A stretch of DNA of 33,392 nucleotides from Deltaproteobacteria bacterium (GTDB lineage Bacteria; Myxococcota; B64-G9): positions 1 through 33,392 of the forward strand of contig JAFGRB010000104.1 in the NCBI GenBank assembly GCA_016935365.1. The letters are read 5' to 3'. The notes under the pieces were generated by a model. That model ran no database searches. It was not told the origin of the DNA and saw nothing but the letters and a program-made list of their open reading frames with translations. The number at the start of each line of letters is the position of its first letter. The first letter of the stretch is position 1. Below are positions 16,987 to 31,712 of the stretch, one piece after another. The position numbers and the translations under genes were made by a program.

Positions 16987-17379
16987 ATGAGATCGTGGCG
17001 CAGCATGGCACTTCGATCCGCCGCCTTGATGGTCCTGTGTGCTCTGGCCGCGAGCCACCCCTGGCTCGCGGGCTGCTCGGTCGACGACCCGGAGATCACC
17101 TCGGGCCGGGATTTTCCTTTCGAGCGGGCCGTGGCGCTCAAGAAGGGCAATTCCACCAAGAAGGACGCCGAAGACCTGCTCGGCCCGCCTTTCCGCAAGA
17201 GCAAGCTGAGCGAGCGCGTGGAGGCCTACCGGTATTTCTCGAAGCAAGTGGTCGTGCACCGGATCTTCTACTTCATCCCCTACCGCTCGGACATCACGGA
17301 AAAGGAGCTCGTCCTGACCTTCCACGGGGCCTTCCTGGAGAAGATCGAGAAGAACGTCTACCAGTACGAGGCGAGCTGA
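16987..17379 (+). CDS. BamE/SmpA-like lipoprotein
   Basis: A 130-residue lipoprotein whose signal sequence ends LAGC (Cys30). The mature domain reads FERAVALKKGNSTKKDAEDLLGPPFRKSKLSERVEAYRYFS and ends with two strands. This is the pattern of the SmpA/OmlA (BamE) fold: a helix, a turn with KG-x-T/S, then a helix leading to LGxP and a beta sheet. BamE proper assists outer-membrane barrel assembly; many stand-alone relatives exist with other roles, so the symbol is not assigned. ATG 16987 is chosen for GAGGAGG spaced 6-9 bases upstream; a longer upstream reading overlaps the previous gene and lacks the signal-peptide position. It ends 9 bases before the CHSA-tail membrane protein and is likely co-transcribed with it. 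Confidence 0.7.
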   Translation: MRSWRSMALRSAALMVLCALAASHPWLAGCSVDDPEITSGRDFPFERAVALKKGNSTKKDAEDLLGPPFRKSKLSERVEAYRYFSKQVVVHRIFYFIPYRSDITEKELVLTFHGAFLEKIEKNVYQYEAS

Positions 17380-17388
17380 GCATCGACC

Positions 17389-20163
17389 ATGTCGCTCCTC
17401 GAACGCCTGGTCATCCTGCTGGGTGTGCTGATCCCGTGCGCCGCACCGGCCGCGTCGGTCGATCTCGTCGAGACGGACGCCCAGGTGTTCATGCGCCCGA
17501 CCGGGGGCGCGGACGTGATCTACACCCTCACATTCATAGACAACGAAGGGCGGGACTTCATCCGGGAGGTGGGCCCCTTCTATCAGCCCATGCACGTCAC
17601 CCGGGCCTGGCTCCAGGATGGCGAGCACAAGCGCGGGGTGAAGTGCATCCAGCAGTCCAGATCCTACCGGGTGGAGTTCGAGGGCTTCCGCACACGCCCC
17701 GGGGGCCGCTACGAGCTGCACATGCACTACCGGGCCAACTACCGCTTCGCCGATCCCACCCAGGGTCCGAAGCGCGAGGAGCTGGCGGCGGTCTGGTTCA
17801 ACCCGCCCCGCTGGGGCATGCAGGTGGGCCGGTCGGTCATCAAGCTGGTGCTGCCGTTCGAGCTGGCGGCCGAGGTGGCCCGGCACGAGGACATCTCGCC
17901 GCAGATGGTGGACGGCTTCGGCGTGGTGCCCGACGGGCAAAACCAGCGCCAGCACGCCAAGTGGGCCTACGTCTATGCCGACGTGGGCGGCAAGCGACGC
18001 CTGGCCGTCTATGTGGAGAAGGCGCCCATCGAGGCGCGCGGCTACCACGAGGTCAAGTGTTACGTGCCCCGGGGCGCCTTCCCGCTGCTCTCGGCCAAGA
18101 AAGACCTGGAGGAGTCGGGCGCGGCCGAGGAGGAGCGCAAGCACGCCGAGGGTCGGGTCGACTTCGTGGCCGAGTCCTACACGCTGCGCTTTCTGGGCAC
18201 CGATCTGCAGACTTTCTCCACCCCGGCAGAGCTCGTGAGCTGGCTCAGCTTCGAGGAGCACGGGCATCGCAACTGCCTGCCGCTGCCCGACAGCACGCTG
18301 TTCTACACCACCGAGAGAGAGCAACGCTGCGAGGTCCGCCTGGACGGCGAGCTGACCCGCAGCTGCGAGATCGGGCGGCAGGCCGTCTTCTTCGAGCCGC
18401 ACAGCCAGCCGGGCCAGCGGATCGAGCTCAGCCTGTTCCAGCTCCACGGGATCGTGAGCTGCTGCGCGGGAGACTACGACGGGCGGGCGGGCATCGAGCT
18501 GTCCATACGCAGCGTGGAGTCGGGCTTCCAGCGCGACAAGCTGCGACAGGCCGTGTTCGAGATCCAGACCGGCCAGCCCGTCACCGGCCGAGACGTGCCG
18601 CTCGACGCCCCGATCCGCGACAGCTCCGGCCTGCCGGTCAGCTTCGAGGTCGGCAGCGGCCAGAGCCTGGAGCTCCGCGCCCAGGCGGTGGACTGGAGCA
18701 AGATCCCATTCGCGCACGCCCGTGACTACGAGGGCTTCTCGGCCGACTCGCCGCAGCTCGTCGCCCGCTACGTCCAGCGCGAGCATCTCGAGGAGCGCGC
18801 CATGGTGTTCTTCGTCATGCCGGCCGATCCCTTGGGCGTGGAGAAGAGATGGCTCCTGGCGACGGAGCTCTTCTTCCGCCACCTCTTTACAGGCGAGCTC
18901 AGCCCCCGCGAGAAAGACGCGGCGCTGGAGAAGGTGACCGTCGTGTTCGAGTGGGTGCTGTGCGCCTTCCTCCTCAACGGCCCGCTGCTGCTGGTCTGGC
19001 TCGTGGCGGTGGGCTGGCTGCTCGCCCTGATCGACAAGATCGCCGGCACCTCGACGCTCAAAGACACCCTGCTTCCGGCAGGCAAGTTCAAGTGGCTTCA
19101 CCCGATCCGGGGCACGCTGTTCGGCTGGACGGCCGTGCTGGTCCCCTTCCGCCTCTTCTGGCTGCTGCTCGCCGGGCTGTTCTGGCTGCTGATCGCTCCG
19201 GTGCTGCGCATCCACCCGGCGCTCGCGCTGCGCCTGTCGCGCCGCAAGGCGCCCGAGTACATCGCGCCCGAGATCACCGTGGCCACCTTCAGGAAAGAGG
19301 GCCACGTGCCCGAGCTGGAGGCCGACGAGGCGGCCGTGATGCTGGATCGGCCGGTCAAGGCGATCAACCTGCTCGTGCTCGGCCTGCAGGAAAAGGGCGC
19401 GATCCGGATCCTGGGCCGCAACCCGCTCAGGCTCGAGCTGCTCGATGCACAGAGAGCCGAGCGCCCGGCAGAGAAGGCGCTGCTGGAGGCCCTGAGCGAG
19501 CAGGGAACCCTGTCGCGCGAGGGTGTCGGGGCCGTGATGACCGCGCTGAGCGAGGAGATGCAGGCCAAGCTCTGGCGCGCGGACCGGGACGCGACGCTGC
19601 GGGCCCAGCGCGAGCGCGCCGAGGGGGTCTGGAATCGGCTCGAGCGCCTGGGCGCTTCCCGGCGGACCGCGTACTTCGATGAGCACTACCGCGATCTCTA
19701 CCTGCACGATCGCTTCTTCCAGCGCCTGTCGAGCTCCTTCGAGCCCATCGGCGTTGAGGCGCCTCTGGACTCGCCCCTGCAGGTCCTGGGCGCATCGAGA
19801 GAGATCCGCACCGCCTCCGGGCGGGTGGAGCAGGTCGAGGAGATGGCCGAGGGGCTGGTCGAGGCCATCGAGCCCGGCCAGCGGGCGACGGTGGAGAAGC
19901 TCGACCGGCTGTTCAACTTCGACAACGACTCGCTGGCCGCCCTGAAGGCCGAGGCGGCCGCCGCCGGGGGCAGCGCGCTCTCGCCGGCCATCGCCGCGAT
20001 CGCGGTCGGCTATGACGCCTGCCACTCGGCCTGCCATTCGGCCTGCCACTCGGCCTGCCATTCGGCCTGCCACTCGGCCTGCCACTCGGCCTGTCACTCG
20101 GCCTGCGCCTGCCACTCGGCCTGCCACTCGGCCTGCGTCTCGTCGTGTGCGGGGGGCTTCTAG
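17389..20163 (+). CDS. DUF2207-like membrane protein with Cys-His-Ser-Ala repeat tail
   Basis: A 924-residue membrane protein. A signal peptide (about 1-22, PCAAPAAS) leads to a large extracytoplasmic beta-rich region to about 515. A hydrophobic segment lies at about 523-547, a second at about 575-608 (interrupted by Arg588, so possibly partly interfacial). The next part ([11 protein letters not shown], then a winged-helix-like stretch to about 690) resembles the cytosolic half of DUF2207 proteins. A helical region follows to about 875. The chain ends in residues 878-924: seven CHSA units, a CA break, two more CHSA units and CVSSCAGGF, giving 12 Cys and 9 His in 47 residues. The tail can bind metal or be enzymatically modified. 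The radical SAM gene starts 2 bases after the stop codon, so modification is the favoured reading. Whether the tail faces the cytosol depends on the second segment and is unresolved. Confidence 0.8.
20020..20160 (+). repeat. 12-bp coding repeat array (TGC CAC TCG GCC)
   Basis: Seven near-identical 12-base units (20020-20103), a TGC GCC break, and two further units (20110-20133) encode Cys-His-Ser-Ala. The only differences between units are synonymous (CAT for CAC twice, TGT for TGC once). Near-identity at DNA level indicates recent expansion by slippage, while purely silent changes suggest that the peptide is kept under selection. Confidence 0.95.
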
Positions 20164-20165
20164 TC

Positions 20166-21716
20166 ATGCGTTTCAATGGCGCTGTCCCTGCAGCCAGCAA
20201 CCGCGAGCCGCAGGCGATCGAGTCTGACGGGGGACGATCGCCGGCGGGGAGTGCCGTCTGCGGCTCGATCGACCCGGCGCCTGACGCCCGATTGTCGGGG
20301 CCGACGGGCTCCGAGACAGCCGCCTGCGCGCGCATCGACGCCTTCGTCGCGCGCACCCGCACCGCGCTCTTCGTGCGGCGGGCCGACGGCTTGCTGATGA
20401 TCCGGCCCGACAAGACTTTGGCCATCAACGCCAGCGCGGCCGAGATCCTCTCCGGGCTCTATGGCCGACCGGGCCGCAAGGCGGCCGCGCTGCTGGACGA
20501 GCTGACGGTCCGCTGGGCGGTGGCGCGCGACCGCCTGCTGGCCGACTGCATGCAGCTCGTCGATACGCTCGGGGCCCTGCTCTCGGAGGACTACAGCCTC
20601 CGGCCCAACCTGCGCTTCGGCGTCTTCGACCGCGCCAGCGTGGCCTTCCCGACCCTGTCCGAGATCGCGCTCACCTACGCCTGCCAGAACCGCTGTGCAT
20701 TCTGCTACGCCTCGAGCCCACACCGCGCCGGTGAGCACCAGCTCATGCGCACCGACGAGGTCGAGCGGGTCATGGAGAAGATCTTTTTCCAGGCCCACGT
20801 GCCGTCGCTGTCGTTCACCGGCGGCGAGGCCACGCTGCGGCCCGACCTGTGCGAGCTGGTGCGGCGCGGCGAACGGATCGGCTTTCGGGTCAACCTGATC
20901 ACCAACGGCCTGCGGGCCGCTGACGCCGACTACGCGGCGAAGCTGGTCGACGCGGGTCTGGCCTCGGCCCAGGTCTCGCTGGAGGCGGCCGACCCGGCGC
21001 TGCACGACGCCATCGTCGGCAGGCCCGGGGCCCACGCGCGCACCGTGGCCGGCGTGGGCCACTTCCAGCGCCTGGGCATCCATGTCCACATCAACTCCAC
21101 CCTGTGTGCGCAGAACCTGCACCGGGCCGAGGAGACGATCCGCTTCGCGGCCCGCGAGATGGGCCTCAAGACCCTGTCGATGAACATGGTCATCCGCACC
21201 GGCGAGGCCCTGAGCGAAGCCGGCCGCGCGATCGGGGTGCGCTACCGGCAGGTGGCTGCCCGCTTGCCCGCGCTGCTCACGACGGCCCGGGAAGAGGGCG
21301 TGCGCTTCGTGTGGTACTCGCCGATCCCCTACTGCATCTTCAACCCGGTCCTGCACGGGCTCGGCGCGAAGTCCTGTGCCTGCATCGACGGCATCCTGTC
21401 GGTGGATCCGGCCGGCGAGGTCCTTCCCTGCTCGTCCTTTGCCAGGGGCATCGGCTCGTTGCTGCGCGAGGACTTCGACACGATCTATCGCAGCCGGGCG
21501 GCGATGTACTGGCGCAGGAAGGCCTTCACGCCGCCGGTCTGCCGGGACTGCGACGACGTGGACGTCTGCGGCGGGGCCTGCCCGCTCTACTGGGACGCGG
21601 CCGGCTCCTTTGACGAGATTCCGCAGCCGGGCGCGGGCGAGCCGCGGGCGAGGCAGCGCTGGGAGAGGCGGCGCAAGCGCGGTCGCAGCTTCGGTGTCCG
21701 CCCGGCCGGTGCATAG
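20166..21716 (+). CDS. Radical SAM/SPASM peptide-modifying enzyme with PqqD-like domain
   Basis: A 516-residue cytosolic iron-sulfur enzyme. Residues 56-142 (FVARTRTALFVRRADGLLMIRPDKTLAINASAAEIL and following helices) look like a PqqD/RRE domain, which in related maturases binds the peptide substrate. The radical SAM core has CQNRCAFC (Cys173, 177, 180) for the 4Fe-4S cluster and FTGGEAT (219-221) for SAM binding. A SPASM region follows with Cys404/406, Cys422 after GEVLP, and the CX2CX5CX3C set Cys459, 462, 468, 472. The usual final SPASM cysteine is not seen. Such enzymes make thioether, C-C or epimer bonds in peptides (PqqE, AlbA, QhpD, HxsB types). ATG 20166 is chosen for its position 2 bases after the CHSA-tail stop; GGGGGG upstream could serve as the ribosome site. 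The adjacent repeat tail is the likely substrate (inference). Confidence 0.88.
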   Translation: MRFNGAVPAASNREPQAIESDGGRSPAGSAVCGSIDPAPDARLSGPTGSETAACARIDAFVARTRTALFVRRADGLLMIRPDKTLAINASAAEILSGLYGRPGRKAAALLDELTVRWAVARDRLLADCMQLVDTLGALLSEDYSLRPNLRFGVFDRASVAFPTLSEIALTYACQNRCAFCYASSPHRAGEHQLMRTDEVERVMEKIFFQAHVPSLSFTGGEATLRPDLCELVRRGERIGFRVNLITNGLRAADADYAAKLVDAGLASAQVSLEAADPALHDAIVGRPGAHARTVAGVGHFQRLGIHVHINSTLCAQNLHRAEETIRFAAREMGLKTLSMNMVIRTGEALSEAGRAIGVRYRQVAARLPALLTTAREEGVRFVWYSPIPYCIFNPVLHGLGAKSCACIDGILSVDPAGEVLPCSSFARGIGSLLREDFDTIYRSRAAMYWRRKAFTPPVCRDCDDVDVCGGACPLYWDAAGSFDEIPQPGAGEPRARQRWERRRKRGRSFGVRPAGA

Positions 21717-21741
21717 CCTGCGCGCTGCGGGAGAGACGCTC

Positions 21742-22995
21742 ATGGGCTGCCTGAAGAACTTCCGCGCCTACCTCGACGAACGGCTGGCACGGCTTGCCGA
21801 GGCGGAGTCGAGGCTCTGCGAGCTGCAGGAGAAGCTCGAGACGTACTACCAGGAGATCGAGCGGGTGCGCGAGCAGGAGTTCGGGCAGCTCGCCGCGCTG
21901 CTCGGCGCGGATCGAGGCGGCCTGCCCGTGGATCTCACCGCGGAGCTGGACCGTCACCTGGACGCCGAGCGTCAGGCCTTCGACGCCAAGGTCGCCGAGC
22001 TGCGCTCCGAGCACGACGCGCGCGTGCGTGACGCCGAAGAGGAGCGCGCGAAGTCGCTGGCCGCCGAGCGCGAGATCCGGCGGAAGAACCGCGATCAGGA
22101 CGCGGCCGAGGAGGAGCTCAAGGCGCGCGTGGAGGATCTGCTCGGCGAGATCGACGCGTACAACGTCCGGATCCGACAGATGAGCTCGGGCTTCGGGTTC
22201 CTGGCCAACTTCTTCAAGGTGCGCCGGCTTTACAAGGTGAAGAAGCGGCTGGACCAGCAGCACCGCGATCTGGCCGCGCGGATAGAGGACCTGCGCGTGA
22301 AGTGGAAGCTGGCCGAGGAGGAGTTCGAGCACGACGAGCAGCAGCGCAAGAGCCACTGGCGAGAGTCGATGGCCGAGGCGGCGGCCCGGCAGACCAAGAT
22401 CGACTATTTGTCCTCGGCCCGTTCGCGTATCGTCCAGCGCGGGGCGCTGGAGCGGTTGCTCTACGTGCGGCGGCCGGAGCTGGCCGAGCCCGCGAGTTCC
22501 GATCCGGCCTGCCCGCGCTGCGGCCAACCCAACCCGGCCGCCAGCCACTTCTGCCGCATCTGCGCCGAGCGGCTGGGAGAAGACCGGCCGGACCTCGATG
22601 GCAGCCTGGCCGAGATGGCCGAGCTGAACCTGCACTTCGAGCGCTTCGGACAGGGTATGCGGGCCTGCCAGGAGATCATCGGTCTGGTCCGCGGCCTCAA
22701 GACCGGCCTCGAGTCCTTCGGCAAGAGCGTCGACGACATGCTCCACAACCAGAGCCGCTACAACCTGGGGCCGCTGGACGTGCATGTGCCCGATAGCTCT
22801 GCGAGCTACGGTGCGCATTTCGACGAGCTGGCCGACATGGTCGTCGACTCGGCCGGCCTCTCCCTGCATCCGGTCCACTTCGCCGAGCGCATCCAGGCGC
22901 TCGTCGGGGAGGTCTACACCGAGGATTCGATCAAGGCCTACTTCGAGGCCATGGGCGAGGAGCTGAGCGCCAAGGCCGAGGCCAGCTGGGGTTAG
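21742..22995 (+). CDS. Coiled-coil protein with zinc ribbon
   Basis: A 417-residue soluble protein without signal sequence. Residues 1-240 are heptad-rich and charged (ARLAEAESRLCELQEKLETYYQ, and similar), indicating a long coiled coil. Residues 257-274 form a zinc ribbon: CPRCGQPNPAASHFCRIC (Cys257, 260, 271, 274). The C-terminal 140 residues are helical with no recognised domain. GGGAGAG lies about 7 bases before the ATG, and the gene begins 25 bases after the radical SAM stop. I do not recognise the family. By position it should act with the CHSA-tail protein or its maturase, for example as a scaffold or delivery factor, but this is guesswork from neighbourhood. Confidence 0.75.
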   Translation: MGCLKNFRAYLDERLARLAEAESRLCELQEKLETYYQEIERVREQEFGQLAALLGADRGGLPVDLTAELDRHLDAERQAFDAKVAELRSEHDARVRDAEEERAKSLAAEREIRRKNRDQDAAEEELKARVEDLLGEIDAYNVRIRQMSSGFGFLANFFKVRRLYKVKKRLDQQHRDLAARIEDLRVKWKLAEEEFEHDEQQRKSHWRESMAEAAARQTKIDYLSSARSRIVQRGALERLLYVRRPELAEPASSDPACPRCGQPNPAASHFCRICAERLGEDRPDLDGSLAEMAELNLHFERFGQGMRACQEIIGLVRGLKTGLESFGKSVDDMLHNQSRYNLGPLDVHVPDSSASYGAHFDELADMVVDSAGLSLHPVHFAERIQALVGEVYTEDSIKAYFEAMGEELSAKAEASWG

Positions 22996-23048: not shown

Positions 23049-23084
23049 TGGGGGCGAGAGCCCATGCGCTCGAGAGGAGGTCCG

Positions 23085-29405: not shown

Positions 29406-31712
29406 GTGACCGGCGCCTGTGGCCGATGGAGATCGATATTCCCGCTGCTGGGCTGCGCGGTGCTGCTGATTGGCGTGGCGGCCCGCGCGGGTGAGAGCCC
29501 GGACCCAGCCATCGCGATCGACGAGCCCTTTCCGATCGAGCTCCCCGCAGAGCCCCCGAACGCAGCCCATCGATCCGCATCGCGGATCGGTCCTCCTGGC
29601 AAGGAGGCGACGAGGACCGAGGCGGAGCGACCTGCCGGTCGTGAGCATCGCTCCGAGGAAGCCGAGGCAGACCAGAAGGACCGAGGCGCGATGCCCCCGA
29701 AACGCCCCCGCGGCATCGTCTTCGTGGCGGTGGGCGACATCAACATGGGCACCGCCTTCCCCTCGAAGGACTTTCTGCCGCCGGACGGTGGTCGCGATCT
29801 CTTCAAGCCGGTGGCCGGGCTGCTGGCCGGCGACGTGCTCTTCGGCAACCTGGAGGGGCCGCTGGCCGATGGCGGCGAGACCCGCAAGTGCCGCCGCAGC
29901 CGCAACTGCTATGCCTTTCGCACGCCGACCGCCTACGTGCAGAATCTCAAGACGGCTGGCTTCGACGTGCTGAGCCTGGCCAACAACCACGCCATGGACT
30001 TCGGCGAGGCCGGCCGGCAGAGCACGATCGAGGCGCTCGAAAAGGCGGGCATCGCTTACTCGGGCCCGGTCGGCAAGCTGGCGTCGCTCGAGGTGCGCGG
30101 GCGGAAGATCGCCCTGGTGGCCTTCACTTCTTCGGAGCACTCGTACAACCTGCTGGACATCGAGGCCGCGGTCCGCACGGTGGGCGAGCAGGCCGCATCT
30201 CACGACCTGGTCGTGGTGTCCTTCCACGGCGGCAGCGAGGGCCGCAAGGCCGCACACGTGCCGGATGCGATGGAGCACCTGGGCAGCGAGCCGCGCGGGC
30301 ACCTGATCCGCTTCGCCCATGCGGTCGTCGACGCCGGCGCGGATCTCGTGCTGGGTCACGGCCCGCACCTGCTGCGGGGCGCGGAGATCTACCGGGGTCG
30401 GCTGGTCGCTTACAGCCTGGGCAACTTCTGCACGTACGGGCGCTTCAACCTGACTGGCCCCATGGGCCGGGCGGTGGTGATCGAGGCCGAGCTCGACGCG
30501 ACCAGCGGCGCCTTCGTGCGCGGGCGGCTTCACGCGACCATCCAGCGCAGGCCGGGCGGGCCGCGGCCGGATCCGTCCGGAGGCGGCATCGCGGACGTGC
30601 GCGCTTTGAGCCGGGCGGACTTCCCGTACACGGCCCCGGAGATCGACGAAAAGGGGCGCATCTCGCCGGGACCCGGGCCGCGAGCCGGGCTGTTCACCCT
30701 GGACACAACCCGCGACCGGGCCGCGCTTCGCAAGCTGCTCGACAGCCTGGCTGCGAACAAGGGGATATCGAAAGACGCCCTGGTGCGGGCCTTCGGCGAC
30801 GAGCGGGCGAGGCTCGAGCCCGAGGTGCTCGGGCGCTTTGCGCGGCCGGCGGAGAAGGCTCTGAGCTATGAGCGCTACCGGGCCATCTTCTTGAAAGACG
30901 ACGTGCTCGCAGCCGGCAAGAAGTTCCTCAGCCAGCGGGCCGCGCTGCTGGCCGAGGTGGAGAAGGCTTTCGGCGTGGAGCGCCAAGTGCTGGCCGGGCT
31001 GATCGCCACCGAGACTCGATTCGGTGTCCACCGCGGAAAGATGAGGGTGTTCAACTCGCTCGCCACCCAGGCACTGCGCATGCGGCGCAGGGCGCGCTGG
31101 GCGCGGGCGGAGCTGCGCGCCCTGATGAAGGTCTTCGCCGCAGACCCCCTGGCGGTCAAGGGCTCCTACGCTGGCGCGGTAGGACTGGTGCAGTTCATGC
31201 CGACGAGCATCCGGGCCTACGGCATGGACTGGGACAAGGACGGGCGGATCGACCTGGATGCCTGGCCCGACGCGCTCGCTTCGGCCGCCAACTACCTCAA
31301 GGCCAAGGGCTGGCGCGCGGGAGAGCCCATCCGGCGCGGCCGGGCCAACTACAAGGCGCTGTGGGGTTACAACCCGGCCCATCACTACGTGCGCGTCGTG
31401 GCCGAGCTGGCCGCTGCCTTTGGCTACGAGGCCCATAAGAAGAAGGGAAGCAAGATCGACAAGCCCAAGCCCGACAAGCCCAAGCCCGACATGCCTGGCA
31501 CCGGCAAGTCAGGCAATACCGGCAAGCCAGGCACCGACGAGCCCGGTGCCGGCAAGGCTGGCACTGGCAAGCCGGGCACCGGCACTGGCAAGCCGGGCAC
31601 CGGCACTGGCAAGCCGGGCACCGGCACTGGCGGAGCTGGATCTGTCGACAAGACAGTCAAGGCGGCTGACGAAGAGGCCGACAAGGCCGGGAAATCCAGC
31701 AATACCGAGTAG
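29406..31712 (+). CDS. CapA-like metallophosphatase fused to MltB-type lytic transglycosylase
   Basis: A 768-residue exported protein. Signal peptide 1-28, then a charged linker to about 100. Residues about 103-380 form a PGA_cap/CapA domain (VAVGDINMG, GNLEGPLAD, LSLANNHAMDFG, SFHGGSEG, GHGPHLLRGAEIYRGRLVAYSLGNF), the family named for poly-gamma-glutamate capsule synthesis and having a metallophosphatase fold. Residues about 440-680 are an MltB-type GH103 transglycosylase: GLIATETRFGVHRGKMRVFNSLATQAL with catalytic Glu536, then GAVGLVQFMPTSIRAYGMDWDKDGRIDL. The final 90 residues are a Lys/Pro/Gly/Thr tail with three exact KPGTGTG units. MltB enzymes cleave murein with formation of 1,6-anhydro-muramic acid. 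The fusion suggests linked capsule or polymer handling and local wall opening. Start is GTG 29406 with GAGGAGGG about 9 bases upstream. I am unsure of catalysis by the CapA part. Confidence 0.87.
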   Translation: MTGACGRWRSIFPLLGCAVLLIGVAARAGESPDPAIAIDEPFPIELPAEPPNAAHRSASRIGPPGKEATRTEAERPAGREHRSEEAEADQKDRGAMPPKRPRGIVFVAVGDINMGTAFPSKDFLPPDGGRDLFKPVAGLLAGDVLFGNLEGPLADGGETRKCRRSRNCYAFRTPTAYVQNLKTAGFDVLSLANNHAMDFGEAGRQSTIEALEKAGIAYSGPVGKLASLEVRGRKIALVAFTSSEHSYNLLDIEAAVRTVGEQAASHDLVVVSFHGGSEGRKAAHVPDAMEHLGSEPRGHLIRFAHAVVDAGADLVLGHGPHLLRGAEIYRGRLVAYSLGNFCTYGRFNLTGPMGRAVVIEAELDATSGAFVRGRLHATIQRRPGGPRPDPSGGGIADVRALSRADFPYTAPEIDEKGRISPGPGPRAGLFTLDTTRDRAALRKLLDSLAANKGISKDALVRAFGDERARLEPEVLGRFARPAEKALSYERYRAIFLKDDVLAAGKKFLSQRAALLAEVEKAFGVERQVLAGLIATETRFGVHRGKMRVFNSLATQALRMRRRARWARAELRALMKVFAADPLAVKGSYAGAVGLVQFMPTSIRAYGMDWDKDGRIDLDAWPDALASAANYLKAKGWRAGEPIRRGRANYKALWGYNPAHHYVRVVAELAAAFGYEAHKKKGSKIDKPKPDKPKPDMPGTGKSGNTGKPGTDEPGAGKAGTGKPGTGTGKPGTGTGKPGTGTGGAGSVDKTVKAADEEADKAGKSSNTE
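31569..31631 (+). repeat. Three 21-bp coding repeats in the fusion protein tail
   Basis: Three exact consecutive 21-base units (31569-31589, 31590-31610, 31611-31631) encode KPGTGTG. Looser KPK and GTGK units precede them. Exact identity implies recent duplication; the tail is flexible, basic and could bind wall polymers. Confidence 0.9.

Follow-up and report, generated by a model that had tools for sequence, protein, structure and literature searches.

We describe a pair of neighbouring genes from distant bacterial phyla which encode a radical SAM/SPASM enzyme and a large membrane protein with a repetitive Cys-His-Ser-Ala (CHSA) C-terminus. The two are very probably an enzyme and its protein substrate, and the cross-phylum gene pair is apparently an undescribed kind of protein maturation. 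The tail is the likely substrate, given the gene pairing, the correspondence between enzyme clades and tail types, and a PqqD-like region in the enzyme.

Gene organisation of the locus

The window, which is the whole stretch of 33,392 nucleotides analysed here, carries both genes on the forward strand, as it does the other features described below. The membrane protein (924 amino acids; 17389..20163) combines a signal peptide, an ectodomain, hydrophobic segments, a C-terminal domain and a Cys-rich tail, a layout read from the protein and its homologues. Its stop codon (20161-20163) is followed after two bases by the ATG of the enzyme gene at 20166 (516 amino acids; 20166..21716), whose product was assigned by Pfam, alignment, structural model and Foldseek and presumably modifies the tail. 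The third gene encodes a coiled-coil protein of 417 amino acids with a weak zinc-ribbon match (21742..22995), and a third gene of this type is present in all 7 close loci, that is those of the window's clade. The first-pass annotation had given these genes with their order and spacing, and all of it agreed with the open reading frames when we read them again; they place a single radical SAM gene in the operon. In 12 out of 23 loci the enzyme starts no more than 4 nucleotides from the stop codon, under a start rule set in this analysis.

Upstream of the pair lies a gene for a small protein of 130 amino acids with a lipoprotein-like N-terminus (16987..17379). It had been called BamE-like, a label we drop, with PF04355 scoring 13 bits against a cut-off of 23.2. 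As the gene is kept in 3 of the 7 close loci, we rejected it as a member of the system and regard it as accessory at most.

Most loci of the window's clade have a fourth gene, whose product of about 177 residues contains hydrophobic segments together with a CxxC pair resembling that of a zinc ribbon (L021:3544-4074, L022:14347-14877 and L127:251-784). We did not see it at the corresponding position of the window; the gene that comes next there begins at 23064. The third gene in other phyla, again after the enzyme, belongs to a different membrane-protein family, for which no Pfam match over the cut-off was found in the five members scanned. This family of about 300 residues, aligned from 10 third-gene proteins (alignment A3), is found at L133:2472-3485, L095:6087-7085, L132:5236-6114 and further loci. 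Two tandem repeats of the window (31457-31631 and 274-478) lie inside long open reading frames (29406-31712 and 125-1888, respectively), and the window's genome has at least seven radical SAM matches clustered between 1587 and 26963 of G000:C127.

Co-occurrence of the tail and the enzyme

Within the window's phylum, an enzyme match (E <= 1e-32) was found in 9 out of 195 genomes, with ten matches in total, and the CHSA DNA pattern in 6. Exactly these six genomes also have an enzyme homologue with 60-100% identity, and tail and enzyme are adjacent at every one of the six loci, in the order membrane protein, enzyme, coiled-coil protein. As a control, the CHSA pattern read backwards was found in none of the 195 genomes and in 1 of 343 Planctomycetota genomes. 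The four further enzyme matches share 35-37% identity. In G023 and G178 the matching gene shares an operon with a membrane-protein homologue that ends in CACAGCACACACAGGGR, G179 has such tails solely on other contigs, and no Cys-rich tail was found within 18 kb of the G024 match. In total, a Cys-rich tail adjoins 8 of the 10 enzyme matches in this phylum.

The same association holds in Planctomycetota, where 13 of the 343 genomes have the tail pattern, 13 have the enzyme (E <= 1e-36) and 12 have both (Fisher p 3.7e-20). The pattern of the one tail-only genome reads CHWA and the one enzyme-only genome, G495, has a CACA tail right after the enzyme; every one of the 13 genomes in which the enzyme was matched has a Cys-rich tail beside it. 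The repeat of G402 runs into a contig end, and tail and enzyme are together on C656. Among 296 genomes of the phylum of G198, which we infer to be Spirochaetota, there are 14 enzyme matches in 13 genomes, 11 of them with a CHSA tail beside them; the three tail-less matches, at 33-34% identity, are not members of the clade. The phylum of G196 (inferred to be the Kiritimatiellae group; 288 genomes) has a tail beside 3 out of 3 enzyme matches.

We also searched from the tail, with a DNA pattern that encodes four CHXX units and was run on 84,980 species genomes; this gave at least 117 stretches. Among the matches listed, 119 frames are open over the motif and 20 of these hold CHSACHSAC near the C-terminus, all belonging to proteins of the same kind as the window's membrane protein (6 of the 20 are incomplete at the start of the DNA compared). 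These at least 20 loci, a biased sample, come from at least 19 genomes and, by record title, from nine phylum-level groups among the matches listed: Myxococcales, Acidobacteria, Kiritimatiellae, Chloroflexi, Planctomycetota, Abditibacteriota, Proteobacteria, Spirochaetes and Aminicenantes. The group names are those of the record titles, and several contigs are short pieces of MAGs (e.g. L096, 3,157 bases) that may be mis-binned. The enzyme directly follows the tail gene in 19 of the 20 loci among the matches listed: 17 directly, L177 with the enzyme just past the first stretch, and L121, whose contig ends inside the first part of the enzyme gene. Three of the 19 enzyme genes are incomplete, those of L121 and L156 being cut by the contig end and that of L131 being broken. 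L091 is the sole listed tail locus without an adjacent enzyme, and the enzyme of the same genome is at L106.

The first-pass annotation had named two outcomes that would speak against a partnership, enzyme homologues never lying next to Cys-rich tails and tail homologues occurring mostly without the enzyme. Neither occurred, be it in the four phyla or in the search from the tail. We also considered carriage on plasmids or phages and rejected it, as the membrane protein of L121 had no match in either. The search from the tail additionally returned frames of uncertain gene status with CHAECHTE-like repeats from Thioploca and Parabeggiatoa (L094 and L167).

The tail repeat

The C-terminal tail of the window's protein, the presumed substrate, spans 47 residues (20020..20160) and reads (CHSA)7-CA-(CHSA)2-CVSSCAGGF. 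Direct reading thus confirmed the nine CHSA units and additional cysteines that had been described for the end of the 924-residue protein. Counting units in 30 loci gave 207 CHSA, 25 CHDA, 4 CHNA and 1 CHQA, 237 in total; the constancy of C, H and A in these counts is partly by construction because only CHxA units before a C were taken, in loci chosen for CHSA-like repeats. In an alignment of 21 sequences (A1), the C, H and A columns are invariant in most units and most Ser columns are not. The third position can be Ser, Asp, Asn, Gln, Gly or Ala, and departures from the unit such as CYSA, CYNHTA, CFSHDA, CVHSA, CHGA and CHAA exist. In the variant tails of L241-L246, the CHSA units are grouped in threes, with CV between one group and the next.

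All synonymous codons of Cys, His, Ser and Ala are in use across the units, with Ser encoded by TCN as well as AGY. The tail is kept at the protein level while its codons vary. The C-terminal endings go by clade: CVSSCAGGF or CVSSCAGSF is found in the 7 loci of the window's clade, and outside it the endings are mostly CVSGG or CHSGG plus about two residues.

Repeats of this kind could arise as low-complexity coding by chance, or by DNA-repeat slippage, next to an unrelated enzyme, and the remaining 99 of the 119 listed CHXX frames are indeed other sequences, many of them simple repeats. For the CHSA tails we consider this explanation negligible. The co-occurrence counts already refute it, and the many synonymous codons, including both kinds of Ser codon, the recurring endings and the adjacency to one enzyme clade across phyla all point the other way.

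The membrane protein

The window's protein has a signal peptide, a predicted beta-rich ectodomain (residues ~22-230), two hydrophobic segments (~511-554 and ~576-612) and, ahead of the Cys-rich tail, a conserved C-terminal domain with the motif KxWDxDxxAT (~640-755). No Pfam or NCBIfam family matches it at E <= 0.01, and its only match at E <= 5 in the two collections is TIGR04117 (E = 0.71). The earlier designation as DUF2207-like was not borne out: no Pfam model matches at E <= 5, PF20990 has no match in the window's genome (G000) and hhalign gives a probability of 2% against one true DUF2207 protein, leaving only the layout alike.

Out of 11 shorter homologues scanned, 10 have a hydrophobic segment after the ectodomain, and several have a further, weaker one. 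The charge evidence is mixed, with positive charge greater after the segment than before it in 6 of the 10. This bias is a weak hint that the tail may be located in the cytoplasm, like the enzyme. The structure model of the membrane protein is of low confidence (pTM 0.38). In a Foldseek search with it, the N-domain resembles the N-domain of M1 aminopeptidase and oligosaccharyltransferase subunits, a likeness too general, so we rejected it as a guide to function.

The radical SAM/SPASM enzyme

The enzyme matches Radical_SAM (Pfam: PF04055; 3e-23, 83.3 bits against a cut-off of 29.5) and SPASM (Pfam: PF13186; 3.8e-6, 27.5 bits against 21.5). By Pfam and alignment, the radical SAM core with the motifs CxxxCxFCY and SFTGGE is encoded at 20670..21149 and the SPASM domain at 21375..21554. 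CxxxCxFCY and the cysteines 390, 404, 422, 459, 462, 468 and 472 are invariant in 16 out of 16 sequences of alignment A2, which consists of the window's enzyme and 15 of the 17 enzymes found from the tail (L131 and L156, broken or cut, were left out). Cys 404, 422, 459 and 462 lie inside the SPASM domain, Cys 390 before it and Cys 468 and 472 after it.

N-terminal to the core, residues 66-139 (20361..20582) form a PqqD/RRE-like region, presumably for substrate recognition. Its PqqD match is just below the cut-off in the window's enzyme (2.2e-4, 21.9 bits against 23.4). PqqD is found at E <= 1 in 17 of 22 N-terminal regions of the family (alignment A5, 22 of 23 sequences), at best with 1.1e-5. 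Searching the PDB with this region returned TfuB1 (E = 0.091) and PqqD (0.14), both behind two designed proteins. The AlphaFold2 model of the enzyme (pLDDT 79, pTM 0.80) has strands and then helices in this region, as expected. About 45 residues at the N-terminus of the enzyme are modelled poorly and lack a clear equivalent in alignment A2, so the true start may lie further downstream than annotated.

The closest structures to the enzyme model by Foldseek are SkfB, SuiB, BlsE, PqqE, 5why, which we take to be CteB, and anSME. The sequence profile likewise has SkfB, a sactisynthase, and PqqE as the nearest solved structures. Of the 66 NCBIfam models matched, 25 were listed, and the enzyme reaches the cut-off of none of these; its best score is 104.6 bits against 395. 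Judged by these scores, only the general radical SAM/SPASM models of Pfam and NCBIfam fit the enzyme.

Enzyme phylogeny and a sister system

In a tree of 66 rows, from which short fragments were excluded, all 42 CHSA-paired enzymes fall into one clade (support 92/95, just under the starred level of the tree tool; 94% of 200 bootstrap trees). The 4 enzymes of a sister system all fall into another clade (100/97), one of them (L040) labelled by its genome and not by its own contig. None of the other rows is inside either clade; their own placement is unsure because of long branches among them. Row L184 is a spurious hit.

The sister system consists of a related enzyme and a homologous membrane protein ending CACAGCACACACAGGGR. 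The CACA-tailed and CHSA-tailed membrane proteins are homologous (hhalign 99.5%) and their tails differ; the CACACA tail has no His. The system is found at L025:4712-9310, L041:7905-12552, L184:3650-5500 and L226:5743-8922. The related enzyme accompanies the membrane gene in L025, L041 and L226. It does not in L184, where the membrane protein ends CAGCACACACAGGGR instead of CACAGCACACACAGGGR. L025 and L041 have a second radical SAM-like gene without CxxxCxxC between the enzyme and membrane genes. Genome G178 carries both tail systems (L039 and L041).

The sister tail also bears on another explanation, in which the unmodified tail binds a metal or cluster through Cys and His while the enzyme acts elsewhere or builds a tail-bound cofactor. 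Cys and His at every fourth residue would suit a ladder of ligands, and the better sub-threshold NCBIfam matches include heme-pathway radical SAM enzymes. These matches are far below their cut-offs (best 161.6 against 500), however, the His-less CACACA tail is still paired with a related enzyme, and a PqqD-like region suggests that the substrate is a peptide or protein. We regard this explanation as unlikely.

Possible modification of the tail

If the tail is the substrate, the PqqD/RRE-like region would bind the membrane protein, perhaps via its conserved C-terminal domain, with the tail in the cytoplasm. The enzyme would then act repeatedly along the tail, and could link each Cys through a thioether to a residue close by, which may be Ala, as happens in sactipeptides. 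No peptide would be released; the outcome would instead be a membrane protein whose rigid C-terminus is cross-linked or binds metal. Cys-Ala thioethers are described for thuricin CD and ruminococcin C1 in an excerpt of PMC8172795. Cys and Ala are common to both tails, the third position is tolerant and the sister tail lacks His, so the simplest chemistry would be a thioether from Cys, and by this analogy we infer that the modification may consist of Cys thioether cross-links.

The tail could also be modified by non-thioether chemistry such as C-C cross-links, epimerisation or oxidation of Cys or Ser, which is also compatible with a partnership of the two proteins. The structural matches of the enzyme include anSME, whose targets are whole sulfatase proteins, and SPASM enzymes perform varied chemistry. 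An excerpt of PMC9062424 offers a precedent in TvgB, a repeat-acting SPASM enzyme that makes cyclopropylglycine. Against this, both tail types have Cys as their densest constant residue and Ser can be exchanged, which favours chemistry at Cys. As far as the chemistry is concerned, we take a non-thioether modification to be a real possibility, if the less probable one.

Comparison with known systems

SPASM enzymes have been sorted into more than 250 clusters (PMC9062424, in part). In the His-Xaa-Ser (Hxs) system, where HxsA occurs with HxsB and HxsC, radical SAM enzymes likewise adjoin a target gene that carries a repeat (PMC9062424, in part). The repeat here is Cys-His-Ser-Ala and not His-Xaa-Ser, one radical SAM enzyme replaces a pair, and the target is a large membrane protein. 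The HxsC model scores 78.1 bits on the window's enzyme against a cut-off of 267.9, and being below every listed NCBIfam cut-off the enzyme differs from HxsB and HxsC. The first-pass annotation had already noted that repeat, order and partner look different from those of the His-Xaa-Ser system. The Cys-Xaa-Xaa-Xaa target of TIGR04117 shares a Cys at every fourth residue, the C-terminal position of the repeat and, by the name of the model, a radical SAM partner. However, this model of only 98 positions scores 10 bits on the window's protein and 21.2 bits on that of L121, against a cut-off of 50.

The maturases SkfB, CteB and PapB also combine a radical SAM core, SPASM and an RRE-like N-terminus with an adjacent Cys-rich substrate. 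In contrast to sactipeptide and ranthipeptide systems, the substrate here would be the C-terminal part of one large membrane protein, among the loci compared no cleavage or export genes turned out to be shared, and the enzyme does not reach the curated cut-offs listed. Instead of a small precursor peptide with a leader, the candidate substrate has 924 amino acids, a signal peptide and membrane segments. Unlike in ordinary RiPP clusters, we found no peptidase or exporter common to the loci compared. Full-size proteins in place of small precursors are also the targets of anSME, which modifies one residue, and of QhpD, which installs a small number of thioethers in the subunit of an enzyme (see PMC8172795, in part); the long regular repeat on a membrane protein sets the present system apart from both.

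In the full-text open-licence literature, where absence is no proof, we found nothing linking DUF2207 with radical SAM, nothing relevant on the CHSA repeat or on the tail with RRE, and nothing on TIGR04117/TIGR04115 or Cys-Xaa-Xaa-Xaa/CXXX with radical SAM.

Implications

Most of what is known of radical SAM peptide chemistry comes from small peptides that are secreted. An RRE-SPASM maturation acting on the C-terminal end of a large membrane protein would be a new variant within a known class of chemistry. For the full reading we lean slightly in favour: a cross-phylum maturation that has not yet been described, in which a dedicated RRE-SPASM enzyme makes a C-terminal repeat poly-cross-linked while it stays attached to its protein, with two co-evolved codes, (CHSA)n and CACAGCACACACAGGGR. 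The regular repeat, varying mainly at its third position, together with two tail types and two enzyme clades provides a directly testable substrate rule. The conserved pair in distant phyla points to such chemistry on a resident membrane protein and, if this is true, RiPP chemistry builds part of a membrane machine, not a released peptide.
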